In this document: positions 4,655-14,347 of the stretch, in pieces | Numbering within the stretch: position 1 is the stretch's first letter | Layout of the letters: every line of letters starts with the position of its first letter | IMG/VR virus record: IMGVR_UViG_3300017615_000002 | Location: 1 to 39,084 of that record | Origin: a virus | Length of the DNA stretch: 39,084 bases | Strand: one strand, 5' to 3' | Program-made: the position numbers and the translations under genes | Notes under the pieces: model-generated | The model's database searches: none | Told to the model about the DNA's origin: nothing | The model's input: the letters and a program-made list of their open reading frames with translations, nothing else

Positions 4655-5298
4655 GGCTTGACCCTCTCAAATGTATAAACAGCCACCCACGGGTTAGCCT
4701 GCCAAGATTGCGCGCCGTTGATTGATTTCCAAAGTGCTTGGAAGCCTTCAACGTGTGGTGCGCCACCTCCATCAGGAGGCTCAAGGATTGGCTCGGCACC
4801 CTCGGCCTCGGCGTCAGCTTCGCTAATGTCCTGAAGCCGCTCGACCTTGACGCCAGTGACTTTTAGACTGATCCGGCTTGCCCAACGCGGCATGTGGATC
4901 GACGGACGGCCTTTGCCCCAAGCCCACAATGGGTTTCTGACACCGCCATCCGCAAGATAATCAATCTTGTCTTGATCGTCTGGCAAATGGCGCGGCGCTA
5001 AATCATTCCACTTGTGAAGTGTTCTCCAGCCTTCGCGCACCCAAAGCGTGTCTCCAGCCTGATTGGCGACATTAAGGTCACGCCAACCGAGACGCTGGCC
5101 TTCTTCCTTCTCAAGCGTGATCCAGTCGCCCCATTCGCCATCTTCCCAGCCCCAGCACGTCGGGTCTGACTGGCAACCTCTAGGGCCGCAAAACTCTGGA
5201 AGCTGTCCGTTCAATTTGATGATGCGGCGCGTCTGTGTCTTGCGACCATCAAGAATAGCGCGGACCATTGGCGCACTGAATAGGATTGGCCGTTCCAT
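4651..5298 (-). CDS. ASCH/PUA-like phage protein
   Basis: This 215-residue protein has the N-terminal phrase ERPILFSAPMVRAILDGRKT followed by QTRR, the signature of phage ASCH-like proteins, then VREGW (87-91), a conserved PRWASRISLKV strand (136-146) and VERLQDISEADAEAEG. A WQANPWVAVYTFERV strand closes the barrel. ASCH domains resemble PUA and are thought to bind RNA or modified nucleotides; the phage members have no settled role. It is coupled to neighbours on both sides (TGATG upstream, ATGA downstream). Confidence 0.8.
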   Translation of the reverse strand: MERPILFSAPMVRAILDGRKTQTRRIIKLNGQLPEFCGPRGCQSDPTCWGWEDGEWGDWITLEKEEGQRLGWRDLNVANQAGDTLWVREGWRTLHKWNDLAPRHLPDDQDKIDYLADGGVRNPLWAWGKGRPSIHMPRWASRISLKVTGVKVERLQDISEADAEAEGAEPILEPPDGGGAPHVEGFQALWKSINGAQSWQANPWVAVYTFERVKP

Positions 5299-5453
5299 CA
5301 GCTTGCCTTCCTATTCTGAACAGTCTTAGCCAAAGCCTTCCAAGCAAGCGCTAGGACATCGCCGCGTGCACCTTGGCGCAGTAGGGCGTCCACGTGCCGC
5401 TTTGCCATTTCGGCTAGGCGGCCGTCGTTTGATGGTGTGGTTAGGCGGCTCAT
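5298..5453 (-). CDS. 51-residue hypothetical protein
   Basis: This small coding region is coupled upstream by ATGA (5450-5453) and downstream by TGATG (5296-5300). The product is basic and helical, beginning MSRLTTPSNDGRLAEMAKRH and ending KTVQNRKAS. It has no recognised family. Evidence is the unbroken frame between two coupled genes. Confidence 0.6.
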   Translation of the reverse strand: MSRLTTPSNDGRLAEMAKRHVDALLRQGARGDVLALAWKALAKTVQNRKAS

Positions 5454-5632
5454 GCAATCACCGCCCAAGCAATCGCCACCAAGCCCAAAACCACGAACCC
5501 TGCCGCAAAACGCAACGGTGAAACGTAGTCGTCGGGGCGCGCTAAATCGGCGGCGTCTTCGTAAGCCTGCCAGTCGACAGTCTCAACGCGGCGGAGAAGG
5601 TATTCGGCGCTGATGCGGTTTGCGTCGCTCAT
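5450..5632 (-). CDS. small single-pass membrane protein
   Basis: The 60-residue product starts at the ATG at 5632 inside TGATG; a GTG at 5635 is possible. The first 40 residues are polar and acidic. Residues 41-59 (FAAGFVVLGLVAIAWAVIA) form one transmembrane segment at the very C-terminus, so it is a tail-anchored type protein with its bulk in the cytoplasm. Function unknown. Confidence 0.65.
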   Translation of the reverse strand: MSDANRISAEYLLRRVETVDWQAYEDAADLARPDDYVSPLRFAAGFVVLGLVAIAWAVIA

Positions 5633-6432
5633 CACGCAGCCTCAACAAACTTGCCAGCTTCAGCGCGATACACACGTCCAGCCTTTAGCTTGCCCTTGCC
5701 AATGCAGCCCGTCGCAATGCCGTTGCACTTGCCATTTTCATCATAGCTGGCGAGCGAAACCCATGTGCCATCTACGCCCGTGACGGTCGAACGATGGCCC
5801 GCAGACATAGCGACACCATTGGTGCCTTCAATCGCCAGTTGGGAGCGATCGCCCGACGCTGCCAGTTTGGAGCCATAGCCCGACGCTGTCAGTTGGGAGC
5901 GATCGCCCGACGCTGCCAGTTTGGAGCCATAGCCCGACGCTGCCAGTTGGGAGCAATAGCCCGACGCTGCCAGTTGGGAGCCATCGCCCGACGCTGCCAG
6001 TTTGGAGCCATCGCCCGACGCTGCCAGTTTGGAGCCATAGCCCGACGCTGCCAGTTTGGCGTAATCGCCCGACGCTGTTGTAACTCCATAGGCGGGTTTA
6101 CAAAGGCTTATAATGCCATCCACAGCGGCCATGATGAATGCGGGCAAAGTCAACTCAGCGCGGATTGCAATGCTGGCCGTGACGCTTTTGTCGCTATCGT
6201 GCTTAACTGCGCCGACCGCCTCAACAGTCATATAGCGGGTTAGCTTGCCGTCATGTTGGATCAGCGGGTAATAATTCCACACGTCCAGCGGATTGGCGCA
6301 GAAATGAAACCCGCGCTTGCATTGAATAGGATCGCCGTCAATCGTGTAGGTTTGGCCTACTTCAAACTGATGATCGCGGCATTTGAGTTCGTGGGTGGCG
6401 GCTTTAAAGCCGGTGACTGGTTCGGTTCTCAT
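5632..6432 (-). CDS. DUF7666-like protein with nine 9-residue tandem repeats
   Basis: From the ATG at 6432, which sits in TGATG with the upstream stop, this is 266 residues; a reading from 6519 would overlap that gene. The N-terminal domain (1-110) has GFKAATHELKCRDHQFEVG and CKRGFHFCANPLDVWNYYP, which resemble the DUF7666 family of phage proteins. Residues about 119-200 are nine copies of a 9-residue unit (consensus KLAASGDGS), probably a regular beta-helix or beta-roll. A small C-terminal domain (about 200-266) closes it. The role is unknown. The perfect 27-bp DNA periodicity means copy number could change without breaking the frame. Confidence 0.75.
   Translation of the reverse strand: MRTEPVTGFKAATHELKCRDHQFEVGQTYTIDGDPIQCKRGFHFCANPLDVWNYYPLIQHDGKLTRYMTVEAVGAVKHDSDKSVTASIAIRAELTLPAFIMAAVDGIISLCKPAYGVTTASGDYAKLAASGYGSKLAASGDGSKLAASGDGSQLAASGYCSQLAASGYGSKLAASGDRSQLTASGYGSKLAASGDRSQLAIEGTNGVAMSAGHRSTVTGVDGTWVSLASYDENGKCNGIATGCIGKGKLKAGRVYRAEAGKFVEAA
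5834..6076 (-). repeat. 27-bp tandem repeat, nine units, coding
   Basis: Nine contiguous 27-bp units (9 x 27 = 243 bp) lie inside the DUF7666-like gene. On the plus strand most read GCC AGT TTG/GGG AGC followed by A/GTAGCCCGACGCT-like sequence, with changes concentrated at the codons for residues 5-6 and 9 of each unit (GD, GY, GYC, GDR; K or Q). The tract is open in several other frames, which explains spurious reading frames here. Confidence 0.95.
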
Positions 6433-6638
6433 CACGCAGCCACCTTCTTGCTCATGCGCTCCAGCTCGGCGGCACAATCGGCAATCGACATGCCAGCAAT
6501 GCGAACTTCCTCGCCGCACATTTGCGACAAGATGAACGTGTAATCGGCGATTGGGTAAATCTCGTATTGGCGGCGAAGGATGGCGCGGTATAGGTCTGCG
6601 CGCTCTCCGTGGGACTGGTGGTGGGTGAAGCTATGCAT
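6432..6638 (-). CDS. hypothetical protein, first gene of the leftward early operon
   Basis: This 68-residue protein is the first gene after the operator region, with a good ribosome site (GGAGAG, 7 nt upstream of the ATG at 6638). It begins with a histidine-rich MHSFTHHQSHGERADLY and continues as a helical domain (ADYTFILSQMCGEEVRIAGM). No family is recognised. Two repressor operators (6669-6685, 6712-6728) lie between it and the repressor gene, so it should be among the first genes expressed on induction. Confidence 0.7.
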   Translation of the reverse strand: MHSFTHHQSHGERADLYRAILRRQYEIYPIADYTFILSQMCGEEVRIAGMSIADCAAELERMSKKVAA

Positions 6639-7557: not shown

Positions 7558-7754
7558 ACAATCACCAAGATAACCCTCGACCCTCCGTCGACGGTTTGCC
7601 CTGCGCCATTCCTCCCGGCGCGCACCTGACTGGGGGCGGCTTCAGCAACCGCTCCCAGTCCTTTTCTCTCCAATCTGGCCACGCACTCTCTCACAAGCTG
7701 GCCAGCGGTTTTCCAAGTCATTCTCAAATTGCCTCCTCTGGTTCGACGCCATGA
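7554..7754 (+). CDS. small low-complexity hypothetical protein
   Basis: The 66-residue frame begins in an ATGA overlap (7554-7557) and ends in another (7751-7754). It is rich in Ser, Pro, Gly and His and has no obvious fold. The start at 7506 in the same frame would lie inside the preceding gene. Tight coupling favours translation, but the composition is unlike the neighbours and the reading could be a fortuitous open frame. Confidence 0.4.
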   Translation: MNNHQDNPRPSVDGLPCAIPPGAHLTGGGFSNRSQSFSLQSGHALSHKLASGFPSHSQIASSGSTP

Positions 7755-8176
7755 TGGGAGCAATTCAAATGCAAATCAGTGACAAAAAAGACGCCTCTTT
7801 GTCTATCGCCGTGCAGGCATGGATCAAGCAGACCTTTGTGACGCCAAGCCAATACGCGCACGCGGCACAAATCGACAAACGAACCGCTAGAGCGCGGTTT
7901 GACGAAATAGAGCCACGCGAGCCGTCTTTGGCGGAAATACAGCGGGCCGTACAGGGGCGGTGGGCCTCTTTCAAAACCCAAGTCTTGGAACCCGTCTTTG
8001 AGACGCCAGACTACCTTCTTGAGGCGAAAATCAATGAACTTAAAGCCGAGCTGGCACGCCGCAAGGCTGAGAATAACGCTGTTCGTTTTGTCGCTGCGCC
8101 TGTGGTTCGTCGAGTGGATTTACGCCCTCGTCTCGACGATTGCGACAAAACTATCTGGGATCGGGCGTTCGATTAA
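7751..8176 (+). CDS. putative small DNA-binding phage protein
   Basis: The reading from 7751 gives 141 residues. An internal ATG at 7769 has a better-spaced ribosome site (GGGAG, 8 nt) and gives 135. Residues about 25-55 (TPSQYAHAAQIDKRTARARF, then DEIE) could form a helix-turn-helix. Residues 95-112 form a charged coiled-coil-like helix (AKINELKAELARRKAE). No family is recognised. It sits between the Cro-like gene and the replication block. Confidence 0.65.
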   Translation: MMGAIQMQISDKKDASLSIAVQAWIKQTFVTPSQYAHAAQIDKRTARARFDEIEPREPSLAEIQRAVQGRWASFKTQVLEPVFETPDYLLEAKINELKAELARRKAENNAVRFVAAPVVRRVDLRPRLDDCDKTIWDRAFD

Positions 8177-8188
8177 AGGGGGCAAGTG

Positions 8189-9286
8189 ATGCCAGCTTAT
8201 AAACAAGTGCCAGTGGAGAGGCTTCACGAGCTGCTAGAGGCAGACTTTGAGGCTGGATTCCTGACATGGCGTTTCCGCGAGGATGTTGGTCACGGGAATA
8301 GGACATTCAATGGCAAGTTTGCTGGCAAAAAAGCCGGTAACAAAACGCCGCACGGTTATTTTGCCGTGCAAATTGATACTGTCCATTTGCTGGTTCATCG
8401 CGTGATTTGGGCGATGAAGTATGGCAACTGGCCAAGCGCGCAATTAGATCACATCAATCATCAAAGATCAGACAATCGCATTTGCAATTTGCGTGAGGTC
8501 TATCACGCCGAGAACCTTCGCAATCAAAGCCCCAACTCCAAGAATAAAAGCGGCGTTAACGGCGTTTTCTGGAGCCATAAGAGCCAAAAATGGCACGCCC
8601 AGATTAAGACTGGCGGCGTTTGCTACTATCTCGGCCTATTTGATTACCTTGAAGACGCTAAACAGGCTCGATTGGCTGCAAACAAGCGCTTCGGTTTTCA
8701 TCAAAACCACGGCGCTGAACCTGCGGAGCCCAAACCACGCGAAAAGTTTACCATCCAAGAGCTAATCCTTGACACGCTTATCCAGCGCAGAGAGGGCCTA
8801 AATGCTGAGGAAATCTCGCGCTTGCTTGTCATGAATAAGCGCGTCATTCAGAATGCGCTTTCGATCCTGAAAAATGAAGGCCAAGTGCGCGGCGAGCGAT
8901 TCCCTGGCGCTTTGAAGGCTGGCCTGCATTGGTTTGCTACGGCGTCGGCAATGCCAGCCAAGGAGCAGCACCACGGCATCAGCGACTTTTACCCGACTGT
9001 GATCGACATCCAGAAAGTCACGGCAACGGCTTTCCAGTCGTCATTCCGCGCCATCATGTCAGAAAGCCGTTCGCCATCTGTCGTGCGCGCTCGGTTTGCT
9101 GCCATCTATCTAGCCGAAAAGCTTAAAAAGCTATCGACCACGGACCTAGCGCGTCGGTTTGCGCGTCAAGATCACACTACGGTCATTCATGCACTTAAGC
9201 GCGCCCGTGAGTTTATCCGGCTAGAGACTGACTTTGCGGCGAAGGTGGATGCTGCCGAAGCTGAATTGGCGCAGGGGCGGAAATGA
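8189..9286 (+). CDS. HNH-AP2-winged helix-DnaA domain IV fusion protein
   Basis: The ATG at 8189 is 6 nt from AGGGGG; a GTG at 8186 is the alternative. Four domains can be read in 365 residues. First, an HNH endonuclease (1-112) with H70 (LLVHRVIW), LDHINHQRSDNRICNL (H89, N96, N100) and YHAENLRN. Second, an AP2 DNA-binding domain (122-169; GVNGVFWSHKSQKWHAQI and YYLGLFDYLEDAKQARLAAN). Third, a winged helix (187-250; LNAEEISRLLVMNKRVIQNA). Fourth, a DnaA C-terminal domain IV (268-350), with RARFAAIYLAEKL, then STTDLARRFARQDHTTVIHA, including the DHTT signature that in DnaA contacts the 9-mer box. The first half is a homing-endonuclease arrangement; the second resembles DnaA-like proteins of phage replication modules. 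It lacks the DnaA AAA+ domain. It may bind an origin or replication-linked target. Confidence 0.85.
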   Translation: MPAYKQVPVERLHELLEADFEAGFLTWRFREDVGHGNRTFNGKFAGKKAGNKTPHGYFAVQIDTVHLLVHRVIWAMKYGNWPSAQLDHINHQRSDNRICNLREVYHAENLRNQSPNSKNKSGVNGVFWSHKSQKWHAQIKTGGVCYYLGLFDYLEDAKQARLAANKRFGFHQNHGAEPAEPKPREKFTIQELILDTLIQRREGLNAEEISRLLVMNKRVIQNALSILKNEGQVRGERFPGALKAGLHWFATASAMPAKEQHHGISDFYPTVIDIQKVTATAFQSSFRAIMSESRSPSVVRARFAAIYLAEKLKKLSTTDLARRFARQDHTTVIHALKRAREFIRLETDFAAKVDAAEAELAQGRK

Positions 9287-9747
9287 CCATCCTAGCGCTA
9301 GACCTTGGGACAAAGACCGGATGGGCCATTCAGTCAGAGGGCGGCTCGGTCGTCAGCGGCACAAAAGCCTTTAAGCCCGGACGGTTTGACGGTGGTGGGA
9401 TGCGTTACCTGCGCTTCACTAACTGGCTGACAGAGTTCAACGATTGTGCGGGGCCATTCAAAACAATTTGGTTTGAAGAGGTCCGCAATCATAAGGGCGT
9501 TGATGCGGCGCACGCTTACGGCGGGTTTCTGGCGACACTCACTGCATGGGCGGAGAAGCAGGCCATCCCTTACGCGGGCGTGTCTGTCGGCACGATTAAA
9601 AAGCACGCCACAGGTCAAGGAAACTCCAACAAGGAAGCCATGATTGAGGCGGCTAAGGCGCGCGGGTTCAAACCACAAGACGACAACGAAGCAGACGCAA
9701 TCGCGCTTCTGTTTTGGGCGATAGAGAAAGAAGGAACAACCAAATGA
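9283..9747 (+). CDS. RuvC-like Holliday-junction resolvase
   Basis: This 154-residue protein has the RNase H-like resolvase fold: D7 in LALDLGTKTGWA, E65/E66 in TIWFEEV and D138 in NEADAIAL, with basic residues in GTIKKHATGQGNSNKEAM (103-120). Family members cleave four-way junctions or branched DNA before packaging. The length is usual. It overlaps the fusion gene by ATGA and the SSB gene by ATGA, so the three form a coupled replication/recombination group. Confidence 0.88.
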   Translation: MTILALDLGTKTGWAIQSEGGSVVSGTKAFKPGRFDGGGMRYLRFTNWLTEFNDCAGPFKTIWFEEVRNHKGVDAAHAYGGFLATLTAWAEKQAIPYAGVSVGTIKKHATGQGNSNKEAMIEAAKARGFKPQDDNEADAIALLFWAIEKEGTTK

Positions 9748-10184
9748 ACATCATCACACTGATTGGCCGCGTAGGCAAAGACCCCGAAACCAAGACATTC
9801 GATAGCGGCAACAAGATCGCCCAATTCTCGCTGGCTACCTCCGAAAAGTGGAAAGACAAGTCAACAGGCGAGAAAAAAGAGCGCACCCAATGGCACCAGA
9901 TCAAGGTCCAAGGTGACGGGCTCGTGGGCGTCATCGAGTCCTATGTCAGCAAGGGCGATATGCTGGCTGTCACGGGCACGCTTGAATATCGCGAATGGGC
10001 AGACAAGGACGGCCAGAAGCGCATTTCGGCTGAGATCGTCGTCGGCCTTAAGGGCGCAATTGAGCTGCTGGGCGGCAAGCAATCCGAACGCTCAAACGAT
10101 GAACACGAGAAGCCAAAATCTAGCGCGCCTCAAAAGACATTCGCGCACGATCTGGAAGACGATATCCCTTTTGATGCGGTCTGA
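9744..10184 (+). CDS. ssb: single-stranded DNA-binding protein
   Basis: From the ATG at 9744 (ATGA overlap with the resolvase) this is 146 residues. The OB fold (1-110) is recognised from MNIITLIGRVGKDPE, FSLATSEKWK, TQWHQIKVQG and LAVTGTLEYREW. A disordered charged linker leads to the acidic tip DDIPFDAV, which matches the SSB tip (DDDIPF) with three extra residues. This tip recruits DNA-processing enzymes. It should coat single strands at the fork next to the DnaB helicase gene. Confidence 0.95.
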   Translation: MNIITLIGRVGKDPETKTFDSGNKIAQFSLATSEKWKDKSTGEKKERTQWHQIKVQGDGLVGVIESYVSKGDMLAVTGTLEYREWADKDGQKRISAEIVVGLKGAIELLGGKQSERSNDEHEKPKSSAPQKTFAHDLEDDIPFDAV

Positions 10185-10279
10185 TGCGCCTAGAGAGGCC
10201 TAATCGGCTGCGTATCAGACATAAAAGAATGAAATGCCCCGGCGGTCGTTGGCGCGACCTGCCGAGGCTAACCAACTAG
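10184..10279 (+). CDS. possible 31-residue basic peptide
   Basis: An ATG overlapping the SSB stop (TGATG) opens a frame of 31 codons ending in TAG. The product, MRLERPNRLRIRHKRMKCPG and 11 more residues, is strongly basic and could bind nucleic acid. The coupling is the only positive evidence; it may be chance in a short gap. Confidence 0.25.
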   Translation: MRLERPNRLRIRHKRMKCPGGRWRDLPRLTN

Positions 10280-10296
10280 CACAAGGTCTAAGGCTT

Positions 10297-10578
10297 ATGG
10301 CTGAGCGAAATCATAACACATTGTCCATGTCAAATCAAATCCCCGTCCAATATCAAACCGACGAATACCGCATCCAGCGCGCGTTAGAGGCCATGGAAAA
10401 CGCTTCTGACCACGAGGCGCTAGGTCGTGCATGGCGCAAAGGGCAAGACCTGCGCGACCATTTGGAAGCCAAACATCGAGACGGCAATGCAGATGCGTGG
10501 CAAAACCTCAAGCGGCTTCATCGCGCGCTTTACTCACGTCAATTCCTGCTAGGCCAGTCCGATGCAGCTTCCACGTAA
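10297..10578 (+). CDS. small helical hypothetical protein upstream of DnaB
   Basis: Starts at 10234, 10297 and 10327 are possible. The ATG at 10297 has a weak AAGG upstream and gives 93 residues. The conserved-looking part begins at SNQIPVQYQTDEYRIQRALE and is all-helical, with many charges. It ends 17 bp inside the helicase gene. The position between ssb and dnaB suggests a replication accessory role such as helicase loading, but no family is recognised. Confidence 0.55.
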   Translation: MAERNHNTLSMSNQIPVQYQTDEYRIQRALEAMENASDHEALGRAWRKGQDLRDHLEAKHRDGNADAWQNLKRLHRALYSRQFLLGQSDAAST

Positions 10579-11959
10579 CCTAGAAGCTGAACAGGCACTC
10601 TTAGGGTCCATCATTGACGCGCCCGAGATTTTGGACGAGCTGGCCACGCTGCGAGCCTCACACTTTTTCGACCCCGTTCATGGGCGATTGTTTGAGGCAG
10701 TAAAGGCAAAGCACCAGAAGCAAGAACGTGTCGATGCTGTCGTGTTGGCTACAGCTTTTCAGGCTGATGAGGGCCTAAAGCAGATCGGCGGCGTGTCTTA
10801 TCTTGGGGCGCTGCTCAATGATGCGTGTCACCCAGACGTCGCGCCGACCTATGCAAGCATTGTCAGCGACTTTGCGGCCCGTAGAGCGATTATAGCGGCT
10901 TGTCAGGCTGGTGTGGAGCGGGCAAGCAACATTGCCCTAGCTGACGGGCTAGAGGCCCCACGGATCGCCTCTGAGGTCGAAGTGGCGCTGCAGCGGATCG
11001 AGGATGCCAGTGCGATTGGGGCCGGTATCTATGCCGGCAAGGTCGCGGGCAATTTTGCTGCACGGCTTCAGGACAAACTAAACGGCATAGAGTGGGATGA
11101 GGTCAAAATCGGAATCCACGAAATCAACGACATGCTTGGGCCGATTGGAAACAATGACGTCATCATCCTTGGCGGTCGAACGTCGATGGGCAAATCAGCC
11201 GTCGCGCAACAGATGGCGCAAGACTTGGCCGAACAAGGTCGAGGCGTTGCCTACTTTGCAATGGAAATGTCAGAGGACCAAATGGCTGCTCGTATGCTGT
11301 CATCCTATTGCAGCCGAAATCTAAGCTACCGCGACATCATTCGGGGTAATCTGAAGTCTTACGACATGCCAGCCATTAAAGAGGCGGCGGATAAGATAGC
11401 CACCCTACCAATCGTGTTTGATCATCGGGGCGGTTTGCGACCGTCCGAGATTGTTGCAGCTTGCCGCAAGTTCAAACGGACGTTCAAAGCTAACGGCGTC
11501 GATCTTGGCTTGATCGTTTTAGATCACATTGGCTTGATGGCATCAGATGAGCCCACGGCCAACGACTATGCGCGCATTTCATCGGTGGCAAGAAATCTCA
11601 AGGTCATAGCCAAGGCGCTTGGGTGCGCGGTTCTGGCTTGCTGTCAGATCAACCGCGCCGGTGGTCAAGACGGCATGAGACCAACCCGTGAACACCTGCG
11701 CGAGTCCGGCCATATTGAGGACATCGCAGACGCAATCGTTCTTGCCCATCGCCCTGGCTATTACACCGCGCGCAACCGCCCAAAAGATGAGGGCGACGCT
11801 GACAAAATGATGGAATGGCAAGAGCGAGTTGAGCGCGAAAAACACAAGCTCGAATTGATTTTTGACAAGGTTCGAATGGGCTCTCTGGGCATGGCCGAGG
11901 TCTGGTTTGACCCTGCAACCACGCGCATGAGATCAGCATCAAACGGGGTTAGACGATGA
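10562..11959 (+). CDS. dnaB: DnaB-type replicative helicase
   Basis: This 465-residue protein matches replicative helicases that unwind DNA ahead of the phage fork as a hexamer. The N-terminal domain starts PRNLEAEQALLGSIIDAPEI (4-23). The RecA-like core carries Walker A GGRTSMGKSA (204-213), the DnaB phrase VAYFAMEMSEDQMAARMLS (229-247), Walker B LIVLDHIGLM, and the sensor region ACCQINRAGGQDG followed by LRESGHIEDIADAIVL. The length is usual. The presence of a helicase and an initiator gene resembles the lambda O/P arrangement with a self-supplied DnaB instead of a loader. Confidence 0.95.
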   Translation: MQLPRNLEAEQALLGSIIDAPEILDELATLRASHFFDPVHGRLFEAVKAKHQKQERVDAVVLATAFQADEGLKQIGGVSYLGALLNDACHPDVAPTYASIVSDFAARRAIIAACQAGVERASNIALADGLEAPRIASEVEVALQRIEDASAIGAGIYAGKVAGNFAARLQDKLNGIEWDEVKIGIHEINDMLGPIGNNDVIILGGRTSMGKSAVAQQMAQDLAEQGRGVAYFAMEMSEDQMAARMLSSYCSRNLSYRDIIRGNLKSYDMPAIKEAADKIATLPIVFDHRGGLRPSEIVAACRKFKRTFKANGVDLGLIVLDHIGLMASDEPTANDYARISSVARNLKVIAKALGCAVLACCQINRAGGQDGMRPTREHLRESGHIEDIADAIVLAHRPGYYTARNRPKDEGDADKMMEWQERVEREKHKLELIFDKVRMGSLGMAEVWFDPATTRMRSASNGVRR

Positions 11960-12813
11960 GCATAAAGCTGATGAATTGTGTTTGGGCGCTGTCTGATTTG
12001 AGCCCATTTCAGAAGCTAGTTTTGGTGGCTTTGGCAGACCGCGCCAATGATGAAGGTGTGTGTTGGCCATCAATTGAAACGCTCTCAAAGAAGACCGGGA
12101 TGACTGGTCGAGGCGTTCAAAAAACAATCCGTACACTGGAAGAATTCGGCTTGCTTGAACGTCAAGAAACGACAGGCAGAAGCAACAAATATGTGCTGAT
12201 TTTACCCCTGAACCCCGTTCACCCCCAAGAGGATGACCCCCGAACCACGTTCACCCCTCCCCTGAACACGGTTCACCCCACCCCTGAACCCCGTTCACCC
12301 AATACATCAATGATACATCAATTAAACAAGAAAGAGACTGTCGAGCGCAAAAAACGCGAGCAAGAACCACCTCCAAAATCTGGCCCATTCCAAGACGCAA
12401 TTAACGCTCAATCCAAGCAAGGCAGAGCGCGTCTAAATCGACCAAAAGCATGGGCAATTTGGCAACGACTTTCCAAGGTACATGGCGAGGAAAAATTGCT
12501 GGCTGCCTATAAGCGCTACCTTTCAACCGACAAAGACGCAAAACGCGACAATGGCGACTGGCAGGCTGGGCTTCAGGTCTGGCTAAATCAGAAGGCGGAC
12601 ATCTGGCTGGAGCAACACACTAAATCAACGGCTGCACCAACCCTTCAAATGATACGCAACATGGTTATCGGCGCGATCTATGCACCGACATCCGGCTTCG
12701 ACGAATACAAGGCGGGCATGTCGTTCCAAGAGGCGAAAGACCTTGTGGCCGCTGCTGAGGCTGACGGTCGATTGGTGCCACGTCCAAAGGTCACCGAAGA
12801 CATGGATTTCTAA
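11956..12813 (+). CDS. HTH_36 replication initiator with iterons inside its gene
   Basis: This 285-residue protein has an HTH_36/winged-helix domain at 1-85 (VWALSDLSPFQKLVLVALAD, PSIETLSKKTGMTGRGVQKT, LEEFGLLERQ), as in phage initiators of the lambda O type. A proline-rich linker (86-125) follows, encoded by four GAAC-N3-GTTC iterons. The C-terminal part (140-285) is helical and should contact the helicase; it includes RPKAWAIWQRLSKVHGEEKL. ATGA couples it to dnaB. The combination of initiator, internal iterons and an AT-rich tract marks this gene as the likely replication origin. Confidence 0.8.
   Translation: MSIKLMNCVWALSDLSPFQKLVLVALADRANDEGVCWPSIETLSKKTGMTGRGVQKTIRTLEEFGLLERQETTGRSNKYVLILPLNPVHPQEDDPRTTFTPPLNTVHPTPEPRSPNTSMIHQLNKKETVERKKREQEPPPKSGPFQDAINAQSKQGRARLNRPKAWAIWQRLSKVHGEEKLLAAYKRYLSTDKDAKRDNGDWQAGLQVWLNQKADIWLEQHTKSTAAPTLQMIRNMVIGAIYAPTSGFDEYKAGMSFQEAKDLVAAAEADGRLVPRPKVTEDMDF
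12204..12300. repeat. four origin iterons (TGAAC-N3-GTTCA) inside the initiator gene
   Basis: Four near-identical palindromic units with flanking C runs (CCCCTGAACCCCGTTCACCC type) have cores at 12209-12221, 12241-12253, 12263-12275 and 12285-12297. The second core begins CGAAC. Centre spacings are 32, 22 and 22 bp, near three, two and two helical turns, so all would face one side of the DNA. This matches the design of the lambda origin, where four iterons lie within gene O. The initiator HTH is the obvious ligand (inference). Confidence 0.8.
12301..12335. other. AT-rich tract beside the iterons (candidate unwinding element)
   Basis: Directly after the last iteron the sequence becomes A/T-rich and contains ATACATCAAT twice, 11 bp apart (12302-12311, 12313-12322), then ATTAAACAAGAAAGA. 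An AT-rich region on one side of iterons is the usual site of initial strand opening. Confidence 0.5.
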
Positions 12814-12840
12814 CCTTGCCAACTTGCGCTCATTCATTCC

Positions 12841-12869
12841 TTGACATGAAAAAAGCAAAGCGGTATCGT
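12841..12869 (+). promoter_or_regulatory. strong promoter TTGACA-N17-TATCGT
   Basis: A consensus -35 (12841-12846), an exact 17-bp spacer and TATCGT (12864-12869) stand in the gap after the replication operon, giving a start near 12876. The transcript runs into a strong terminator about 75 nt later. This promoter plus early terminator, just ahead of a NusG-family gene, resembles a phage late promoter controlled by antitermination. Confidence 0.65.
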
Positions 12870-12875
12870 TGCCCC

Positions 12876-12954
12876 GAAGGGCTTTTTGGATGATGTCAGT
12901 CATTTAAGGTTCCTAAGAAAGGCCCACTTACGCCGCCAGCGAAGTGGGCTTTTT
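12876..12954 (+). ncRNA. predicted short terminated leader RNA (about 75-80 nt)
   Basis: If transcription starts near 12876 and stops in the T-run at 12950-12954, a discrete short RNA is made. A small GCCC-CGAA-GGGC hairpin (12871-12882) overlaps its beginning. It could be a lambda 6S-like by-product of an antiterminated promoter or a regulatory RNA. This is predicted from promoter and terminator positions only. A weak open frame across this span (12886-13080) is not supported. Confidence 0.4.
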
Positions 12955-12955
12955 G
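12921..12955 (+). terminator. intrinsic terminator upstream of the NusG-like gene
   Basis: An 8-bp stem GCCCACTT (12922-12929) / AAGTGGGC (12942-12949) with further pairing in the loop is followed at once by TTTTT. It would end transcripts from both the replication operon and the promoter at 12841-12869 before they reach the gene at 13050. Confidence 0.85.
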
Positions 12956-13049
12956 TTGTTGCAACTGAATATCGCTTGCCAACCACAGCAAATCCCACTA
13001 AGCACACCCTCGGGCAAACCGTCGACGGGCCAACCAAGGACCGCGACAA

Positions 13050-13577
13050 ATGCAGCATGAATCCAACTGGCACGTTCTAATCGTTCAATCCGGGCAAGAG
13101 ACCAAAGCGCGCGACAATCTCACTGAATGGGGTCGCGTTGAAGCCTATCTCCCAATGCGCAGGTTCTGGAAGCGCGAGACGCGAGGCACTAAACGTGTCC
13201 GTATTGCCTCAGAGGCGGCGCTGTACGCGGGTTATCTGTTTTTCCGGTGTGATCTATCGAAAATCGGTGCAAGCCTCTGTGTGGCTAAATCTGGGGCTTC
13301 TAGCGTGCTGATGTTTGATGGCATACCGGCTCAGATTCCAAACGGTCTGGTTCTGGCCATGCGTAAGTCTGAAGAGCTGGGCAAATGGGATGACACCATT
13401 GCAGAGGCCGAGCGCTTCAAGAGTTTGATTGGCAGCCAGATCACAATCAAGGACGGCGTGTTGGCTGGGTTCTTGGCGACGATCACGGCACCATGTGGCC
13501 AAGATCGGGTTTATGCTGAGACATTAGGGCCGCGACCTATTAAGACGGTGTTGGATGTTAGCGATTTAGTTGCTTGA
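13050..13577 (+). CDS. NusG/RfaH-family transcription factor (candidate late antiterminator)
   Basis: This 175-residue protein has an NGN domain (6-107): WHVLIVQSGQETKARDNL, EAYLPMRR, ALYAGYLFFRCDL, VLMFDGIPAQIPNGL. A KOW domain follows (124-160; LIGSQITIKDGVLAGFLATI). NGN binds the RNA polymerase clamp and reduces pausing; specialised paralogues such as RfaH and LoaP act at chosen operons. It starts at 13050, 9 nt after AAGGA, and follows an intrinsic terminator. The long late operon lies immediately downstream. A role as a Q-like antiterminator is inferred. The alternative is a general NusG mimic. Confidence 0.85.
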   Translation: MQHESNWHVLIVQSGQETKARDNLTEWGRVEAYLPMRRFWKRETRGTKRVRIASEAALYAGYLFFRCDLSKIGASLCVAKSGASSVLMFDGIPAQIPNGLVLAMRKSEELGKWDDTIAEAERFKSLIGSQITIKDGVLAGFLATITAPCGQDRVYAETLGPRPIKTVLDVSDLVA

Positions 13578-13693: not shown

Positions 13694-14061
13694 TTTTGAC
13701 CCTCGCGCTATTAGCTGCACAACTAGGCCCAGTCACCGAGACCGAGTTCACTAAGGCCGAACGGGATCGGGTTATTGTGGTGGCACGAGCTGTTAGGGTT
13801 AACCTTAGCAAGACCCTGCTCTCCTATCGCTCCAGCTATTTCGATAGCGTCAAGGTTATCAAGACAGATCGTGGCTTTCATATCTTCTGCGGTCTAATGC
13901 GTGGCCCTACCAAGCAAGGCCGCATGTCTGACTGGTTGCAGTTCTATGCAACACCTACCGTGTTTGAGACTGGCCCTAAGGCTTACGAGCTATGCACCTA
14001 CACACCGGGCAAGCAGGACACGATTGGCTATTCTGCCCATATGAATTGGCCAGTTGACTAA
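13690..14061 (+). CDS. hypothetical protein with N-terminal hydrophobic segment
   Basis: This 123-residue protein begins with a short hydrophobic stretch (MILTLALLAAQLGPVTETE) that could act as a signal peptide, though it lacks basic residues at the start. The rest is a mixed alpha/beta domain with GFHIFCGLMRGPTKQGRMSD and TPGKQDTIGYSAHMNW. It has two cysteines (about 68 and 103) that could pair if exported. No family is recognised. It lies between the NusG-like gene and HNH. Confidence 0.6.
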   Translation: MILTLALLAAQLGPVTETEFTKAERDRVIVVARAVRVNLSKTLLSYRSSYFDSVKVIKTDRGFHIFCGLMRGPTKQGRMSDWLQFYATPTVFETGPKAYELCTYTPGKQDTIGYSAHMNWPVD

Positions 14062-14347
14062 GCAACCTACCCGACCCTCATGGCATGGGCTCTACTCTAC
14101 CAAAGCATGGCAATCACTAAGGCGCGACACATTGGTGCGCGACTTGTTCGTCTGCCAAATATGTAATTCAGTTGCCAATGTGGTCGATCACATAAAGGCG
14201 CACAAAGGCGATCCAGACTTGTTCTGGGATCAAGCTAACCTGCAGTCACTATGCAAGCCATGCCACGACAGGCACGCACAGAGGCGTGATCGAGGTGGTG
14301 ATATCAGGGCAGTAGGTCCAGACGGATGGCCGATTGGTGAGCGATGA
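14054..14347 (+). CDS. HNH endonuclease next to terminase
   Basis: This 97-residue protein starts at a TTG (14054) because no ATG or GTG is available before the conserved region. It has the HNH/zinc pattern CQIC (about 34-37), VVDHIKAHKGDPDLFWDQ, NLQSLCKPCHDRHAQRRD. HNH proteins in this place, just upstream of the small terminase gene, work with terminase in cos cleavage and packaging in HK97-type phages. It overlaps the preceding gene by 8 bp. Confidence 0.88.
   Translation: MTKQPTRPSWHGLYSTKAWQSLRRDTLVRDLFVCQICNSVANVVDHIKAHKGDPDLFWDQANLQSLCKPCHDRHAQRRDRGGDIRAVGPDGWPIGER

Follow-up and report, generated by a model that had tools for sequence, protein, structure and literature searches.

The gene at 8189..9286 (+ strand) of the window, the 39,084-nucleotide stretch of viral DNA analysed here, encodes a 365-amino-acid protein in which an HNH-AP2 nuclease, an HTH-like region and DnaA domain IV lie in a single open frame. 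The nuclease open reading frame (ORF) starts at the ATG of a resident gene, behind a retained ribosome-binding site (RBS), replaces a 63-residue domain and, from about residue 181, continues in frame as the resident protein. With moderate confidence, we regard the gene as a natural in-frame chimera, in which a homing-type HNH-AP2 nuclease gene has taken the place of the 5' end of a DnaA-IV gene resident in the phage. The domain combination is real and, as far as searched, undescribed; its evolutionary origin is clear, and it comes from one metagenomic contig.

Domain architecture of the fusion protein

The fusion ORF is open from a GTG at 8186 or the ATG at 8189 to the stop codon at 9284-9286; the 365 residues are counted from the ATG. 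No stop codon separates the nuclease and DnaA parts, in agreement with the first-pass annotation, which had described the frame between the halves as unbroken. Pfam, PHROG, PDB profile and structure comparisons gave a layout of an HNH_3 and AP2 nuclease (residues 1-175), followed by an HTH that is weakly supported (about 189-236) and by DnaA domain IV (about 270-356), which was assigned with confidence. In the Pfam search, HNH_3 at residues 68-111 (E 3e-14) and Bac_DnaA_C at 273-338 (E 3e-16) scored above the cut-off; AP2 at 122-160 (E 7e-4) and, at 189-236, RPA_C (E 8e-4) and HTH_11 (E 1.6e-3) scored below it. Residues 5-185 were matched to the HNH endonuclease family phrog_99 (E 4e-60). For comparison with the PDB, a profile from 42 relatives of the fusion protein was used as the query; it matched I-HmuI (1u3e, E 5.6e-5), plant AP2 domains (7wq5, E 5e-7, and 7et4) and DnaA domain IV (1j1v and 1l8q), each in the expected segment.

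Both halves were modelled well by AlphaFold2, with a pLDDT of ~95 for residues 1-170 and, from a deeper alignment, a pLDDT of ~95 for DnaA domain IV. In Foldseek, domain IV superposed with an rmsd of 1.1 A on 3pvp and on 1j1v, the latter being E. coli DnaA domain IV with box DNA. The AP2 part matched AP2 domains at probabilities of up to 1.0, for example 1gcc at 1.8 A, with weak E-values. An AP2 DNA-binding domain is present in the protein. The earlier reading of residues 1-169 as an HNH and AP2 homing-type nuclease is therefore borne out by HNH_3, phrog_99, the 1u3e and AP2 profile matches and the model. The companion reading of residues 187-350 as a winged helix and a DnaA C-terminal domain held for DnaA domain IV and weakly for the winged helix: the HTH match was weak and the HTH-like helical region of the model had low pLDDT and lacked wing strands, and the label "winged helix" for this region is tentative. 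The Pfam search of the fusion protein gave no Bac_DnaA match, which would mark the AAA+ ATPase domain III, and the TIGR00362 score was 58.8 against a cut-off of 343.9. Neither a T5orf172 nuclease domain nor a RepA_N domain was found in the protein by Pfam.

Nuclease-free relatives and the fusion junction

A scan of viral contigs identified two close relatives, L001 and L002, whose matches start at residue 164-177 of the fusion protein. Their gene encodes 248 amino acids and carries no nuclease, showing that empty alleles exist. The last 184 residues of the fusion protein were 98% identical to L001 and 93% identical to L002; the front end of the relatives is a different domain of about 63 residues with no Pfam match. 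The inherited module comprises the HTH-like region (residues 182-236; 8732..8896, +), with its weak HTH_11 and RPA_C matches and low-confidence model, and DnaA domain IV (residues 270-356; 8996..9256, +), supported by Bac_DnaA_C, 1j1v and conservation in 62 viral proteins. The acquired nuclease (residues 1-175; 8189..8713, +), recognised by HNH_3, AP2 and 1u3e, has its nearest free-standing relatives in L024 and L111 (42-44%). Between the two parts lies the fusion junction (residues 176-181; 8714..8731, +), where identity to L001 changes from 12/30 nucleotides at 8701-8730 to 26/30 at 8731-8760, a sharp break at about 8728-8731.

The left side of the nuclease is also shared with the relatives. 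Alignment of the 5' junction showed that the parental RBS (GGGGG) and ATG (8177..8191, +) are common to L001 and L002, and the left flank common to the window and its relatives consists of the end of the upstream gene, the GGGG of the RBS and AAGTGATG. The upstream gene (7751..8176, +) is small and regulator-like and is syntenic with the gene before DnaA-IV in L001; the two products aligned by BLASTP with 27% over 119 amino acids (E 5e-7), and the C-terminal tail is conserved in the DNA. The parent N-terminal domain was absent from the whole window by tblastn. The loss of this domain, together with the kept RBS and ATG and the abrupt 3' junction, shows that the nuclease took the place of the parent N-terminus from the start codon to the linker. 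An intein, or an insertion inside the parent gene, was ruled out because the parent N-terminal domain is missing rather than displaced.

These relatives reverse one earlier interpretation. The first-pass annotation had offered, as one possibility, a selfish nuclease that captured an origin-binding domain; near-identical nuclease-free genes exist, and it is better to say that a resident DnaA-IV gene was invaded. The homologue search that it recommended, with and without the N-terminal half, yielded both the nuclease-free versions in L001 and L002 and free-standing nucleases. Joining of the halves by metagenome assembly, for which it may be said that there is one metagenomic contig and that a second copy was not found in the searches, is very unlikely: on either side of the nuclease there is synteny with the same relatives, through the upstream gene and RBS to the left and through the DnaA-IV module to the right, and the two parts meet exactly in frame.

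The free-standing nuclease of L024 aligns through the motif FGFxxNHGA (about residues 168-176 of the window protein) and ends about 30 amino acids further on, so that the join falls where the enzyme naturally stops. The G+C content of the nuclease half was 0.47-0.50, compared to 0.55. In L002, a DNA methyltransferase gene (5061-5741) starts at the ATG equivalent to 8189 of the window, and the DnaA-IV gene then has a new start; this start codon is thus an insertion hotspot that has received two unrelated insertions. Past the junction, the first in-frame start codon of the fusion gene is at residue 212, inside the HTH. Separate translation of the C-terminal half was for this reason judged unlikely, and both activities would be physically tied.

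Conserved residues and selection on the DnaA half

The nuclease half keeps D87, H88, N100 and N109, which are near-invariant in the alignment of its relatives. Among viral DnaA-IV proteins (n = 62), R302, D328, H329 and T331 were invariant and R294 and T330 nearly so. By alignment to 1j1v, R294, R302, D328, H329, T330 and T331 correspond to E. coli DnaA R399, R407, D433, H434, T435 and T436, the residues that touch the DnaA box. The roles of R399 and T435 in DnaA-box contact have been restated (PMC9638019). As judged from these alignments, the HNH catalytic residues and the DNA-contact residues of DnaA domain IV are retained in the fusion protein.

Comparison of the shared module between the window and L001 gave a dS of 0.46 and a dN of 0.012, a ratio of 0.027, and the codons private to the window in this module comprised 20 synonymous and 2 replacement changes. 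These substitution patterns indicate that the DnaA half is under strong constraint, which may predate the fusion and is not in itself proof of selection after it. The constraint does bear on the suggestion that the fusion is recent and nearly neutral, with the chimera tolerated and one or both halves heading to decay. A single fused allele is known and the parent lost a 63-residue N-terminal domain, as such a history would predict, but the frame is unbroken, the catalytic and DNA-contact residues are in place, the DnaA half is strongly constrained and the RBS and start are retained. We consider a neutral fusion doubtful.

Distribution of the two halves

Among 139 distinct viral DnaA-IV ORFs, HNH was present in the window's protein only. 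Conversely, none of about 80 HNH-AP2 loci had a DnaA-IV domain, and none runs more than 61 amino acids past the last matched residue of the profile. No entry among 50,697 phage records covered 80% of the fusion protein. The first-pass annotation knew of no described protein of this architecture, a statement that stands after these searches of phage records and DnaA-IV ORFs. Matches by tblastn that ran past AP2 into residues 180-240 (phage Tls, KLEP18-1 and RHph_Y25) were discounted, as they extend beyond the annotated gene ends. Two scans of genome contigs, one using the C-terminal module as the query and the other the parent protein, gave nothing beyond a cellular DnaA.

Small proteins with DnaA domain IV at the C-terminus are common among phages and occur on many IMG/VR contigs; two are annotated with a named host, both of them from Bradyrhizobium phages (ppBjS10J-1 and ppBeUSDA76-2). 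In ppBjS10J-1, L035, L038 and L264, a free-standing HNH-AP2 gene is found 0.5-0.6 kb upstream of the DnaA-IV gene; in L268 one is found downstream. These positions indicate that the nuclease family visits this neighbourhood repeatedly, perhaps no more often than by chance.

The DnaA-IV proteins of the IMG/VR loci L030-L109 and L193-L272 are a large, diverse and mostly unnamed set, usually of 130-250 amino acids, in which the N-terminus varies and DnaA domain IV is conserved; families for them are almost missing from PHROG. One contig, L020 (IMGVR_UViG_3300017634_000004), encodes at 12538-13185 a second DnaA-like protein with the contact motif changed to RDRASVTHM and a C-terminal HTH, a layout that resembles the gene transfer agent activator GafA.

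Genome context and DnaA boxes

The window, a virus record of 39 kb, belongs to a temperate phage and contains an integrase, an HK97-type terminase and a replication block. The fusion gene heads this block, as had been noted at first pass, and is followed by genes for a RuvC-like resolvase (9283..9747, +; phrog_159, E 3e-27), SSB (9738..10184, +; PF00436, E 3e-29), a DnaB-like helicase (10562..11959, +; PF03796, E 7.5e-53) and an O-like phage replication initiator (11956..12813, +; phrog_270 and phrog_391). The iterons reported earlier were recovered as four 21-nt repeats within the O-like initiator gene (12204..12300, +). They are the probable phage origin, and a box search of them found no DnaA box.

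The replication module downstream of the DnaA-IV gene (9283-13050) has been swapped wholesale relative to L001 and L002, as read from translations: RuvC-SSB-DnaB-initiator in the window, RusA-like-DnaB-initiator in L001, and helicase, nuclease and primase/VapE-like genes in L002. A NusG-like antiterminator (13050-13577; phrog_6386) lies between the replication block and the late genes and includes a stretch 92% identical in L002. Directly before the terminase genes is a second, unrelated small HNH protein (14054-14347; PF01844), the arrangement of HK97-type phages. Nine 27-bp tandem repeats, 90% alike, occupy 5834-6077 within an ORF on the minus strand (5632-6519), which has a DUF7666 domain; L002 has the array as well.

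The canonical DnaA box, TTWTNCACA, was not found in the window, compared to 2.2 expected, a result with a chance of about 1 in 6, and TNWTNCACA sites were few. In the nuclease-free relatives G002 and G003 there were 0 and 1 TTWTNCACA sites, respectively, and in 75 phage loci there were 26, compared to 27.6 expected, which is no excess. These counts give no sign of any action of phage DnaA-IV proteins on the canonical boxes of phage DNA. Since the phage's own genome and iterons are without canonical boxes, the idea that the protein nicks its own origin, starting rolling-circle or recombination-dependent replication, has no sequence support. Although the position of the gene at the head of the replication block would suit that role, an O-like initiator, which has iterons of its own, and a DnaB helicase are already part of the block, and the nuclease-free relatives presumably replicate without the nuclease. 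We regard this possibility as extremely improbable.

A nuclease directed at other origins is the main rival, a possible but unlikely reading. DnaA domain IV, with the HTH, would then guide the HNH nuclease to DnaA boxes or to initiator sites related to them, in the manner of ICP1 Odn with RepA_N. Such sites would lie in host oriC, where cutting would stop the host from replicating, or in the origin of a prophage, plasmid or satellite that competes with the phage. Odn and related chimeras, in which an HEG-derived nuclease is joined to an origin-binding domain, cut the cognate origin (PMC8263062; PMC10448857), and the DnaA-box contact residues are kept in the fusion protein. Self-avoidance would also predict the scarcity of boxes in the window. 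An outward-directed nuclease would agree with the absence of boxes, but this absence is compatible with chance, not being significant for the canonical box, and is equally seen in the nuclease-free relatives. Furthermore, the DnaA-IV half predates the arrival of the nuclease, so that no choice of target is implied, and the AP2 domain brings its own DNA binding. It is unlikely that the phage has made its own DnaA-IV protein a weapon, a DnaA-box-directed nuclease that cuts host oriC or the DnaA-dependent origins of competitors and spares the phage genome. If the chimera does cut at DnaA boxes, it would represent a second, independently evolved class of origin-directed nuclease besides that of ICP1, aimed at the most widespread initiator site of bacteria.

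Proposed route of invasion

Invasion of a resident gene by a homing endonuclease is the explanation that we prefer; the nuclease may be no more than a selfish gene that inserted at a convenient site. The resident gene codes for a small DNA-binding protein of the early phase, which has an HTH and DnaA domain IV. The nuclease probably entered this gene by recombination; it is now carried along in frame and uses the RBS and presumably the promoter of the gene, so that the phage would express one protein. Like other homing enzymes, this protein would cut or nick DNA with its AP2 and HNH parts; the site is probably the nuclease-free allele of related phages or close to it, and cutting there would allow the chimera to spread. 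The DnaA-IV half may keep the resident role, most likely binding of DnaA-box-like sites as an early regulator; by analogy with GafA, phage DnaA-IV proteins are perhaps early regulators (PMC9638019). A homing nuclease has here been caught becoming part of a resident phage gene: the state before the fusion, free-standing nucleases in the neighbourhood and the exact junction can all be examined. The case also draws attention to the phage proteins built around DnaA domain IV, a large group that is mostly unnamed.

Comparison with known systems

Phage HNH-AP2 homing endonucleases (HNH_3 and AP2, for example L024) match residues 1-175 of the fusion protein in domain order, catalytic residues and end point. 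These phage enzymes are free-standing and end soon past AP2, whereas the fusion protein continues into a 190-residue DNA-binding protein; the nuclease in the window is neither free-standing nor intron-borne, being fused in frame to a resident gene. The IPA-HNH group is a more divergent HNH-AP2 branch (PMC10448857). The C-terminal half is shared with the small phage DnaA-IV proteins (L001, L002, ppBjS10J-1, ppBeUSDA76-2 and IMG/VR contigs), and the L001 gene occupies the same place as the fusion gene, behind a related upstream gene. Unlike the fusion protein, none of the other distinct DnaA-IV ORFs examined carries a nuclease.

ICP1 Odn is an HEG-derived nuclease joined to RepA_N that cuts the origin of its cognate satellite (PMC8263062; PMC10448857), and the fusion protein likewise has an HEG-type nuclease joined to the DNA-binding domain of an initiator. 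However, Odn (Gp88), Gp5 and the nucleases of coliphages Inny, Muut and Mt1B1_P17 combine T5orf172 with RepA_N, in contrast to HNH-AP2 with DnaA domain IV, and the binding half of the Odn type comes from a rival element, in contrast to the phage gene that supplied that of the fusion protein. By this comparison the fusion protein resembles the Odn system in outline and is not a member of it; both domains differ, and its target is only hypothetical.

GafA activates gene transfer agents, and in Hyphomicrobiales a small DnaA-like protein adjoins it (PMC9638019). GafA and its neighbour place a DnaA-like DNA-binding domain outside replication in alphaproteobacterial phage-like elements (PMC9638019), and this domain is the likeness to the fusion protein; the C-terminal half of GafA is sigma-like, and GafA lacks a nuclease, whereas the fusion protein has one. 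Finally, phage Orf/DUF968 recombinases fused to HNH are on record and, like the fusion described here, join HNH to a phage DNA-metabolism protein (PMC4118853). In those proteins the HNH class and the partner are different and the HNH domain is C-terminal, whereas in the window's fusion protein it is N-terminal.
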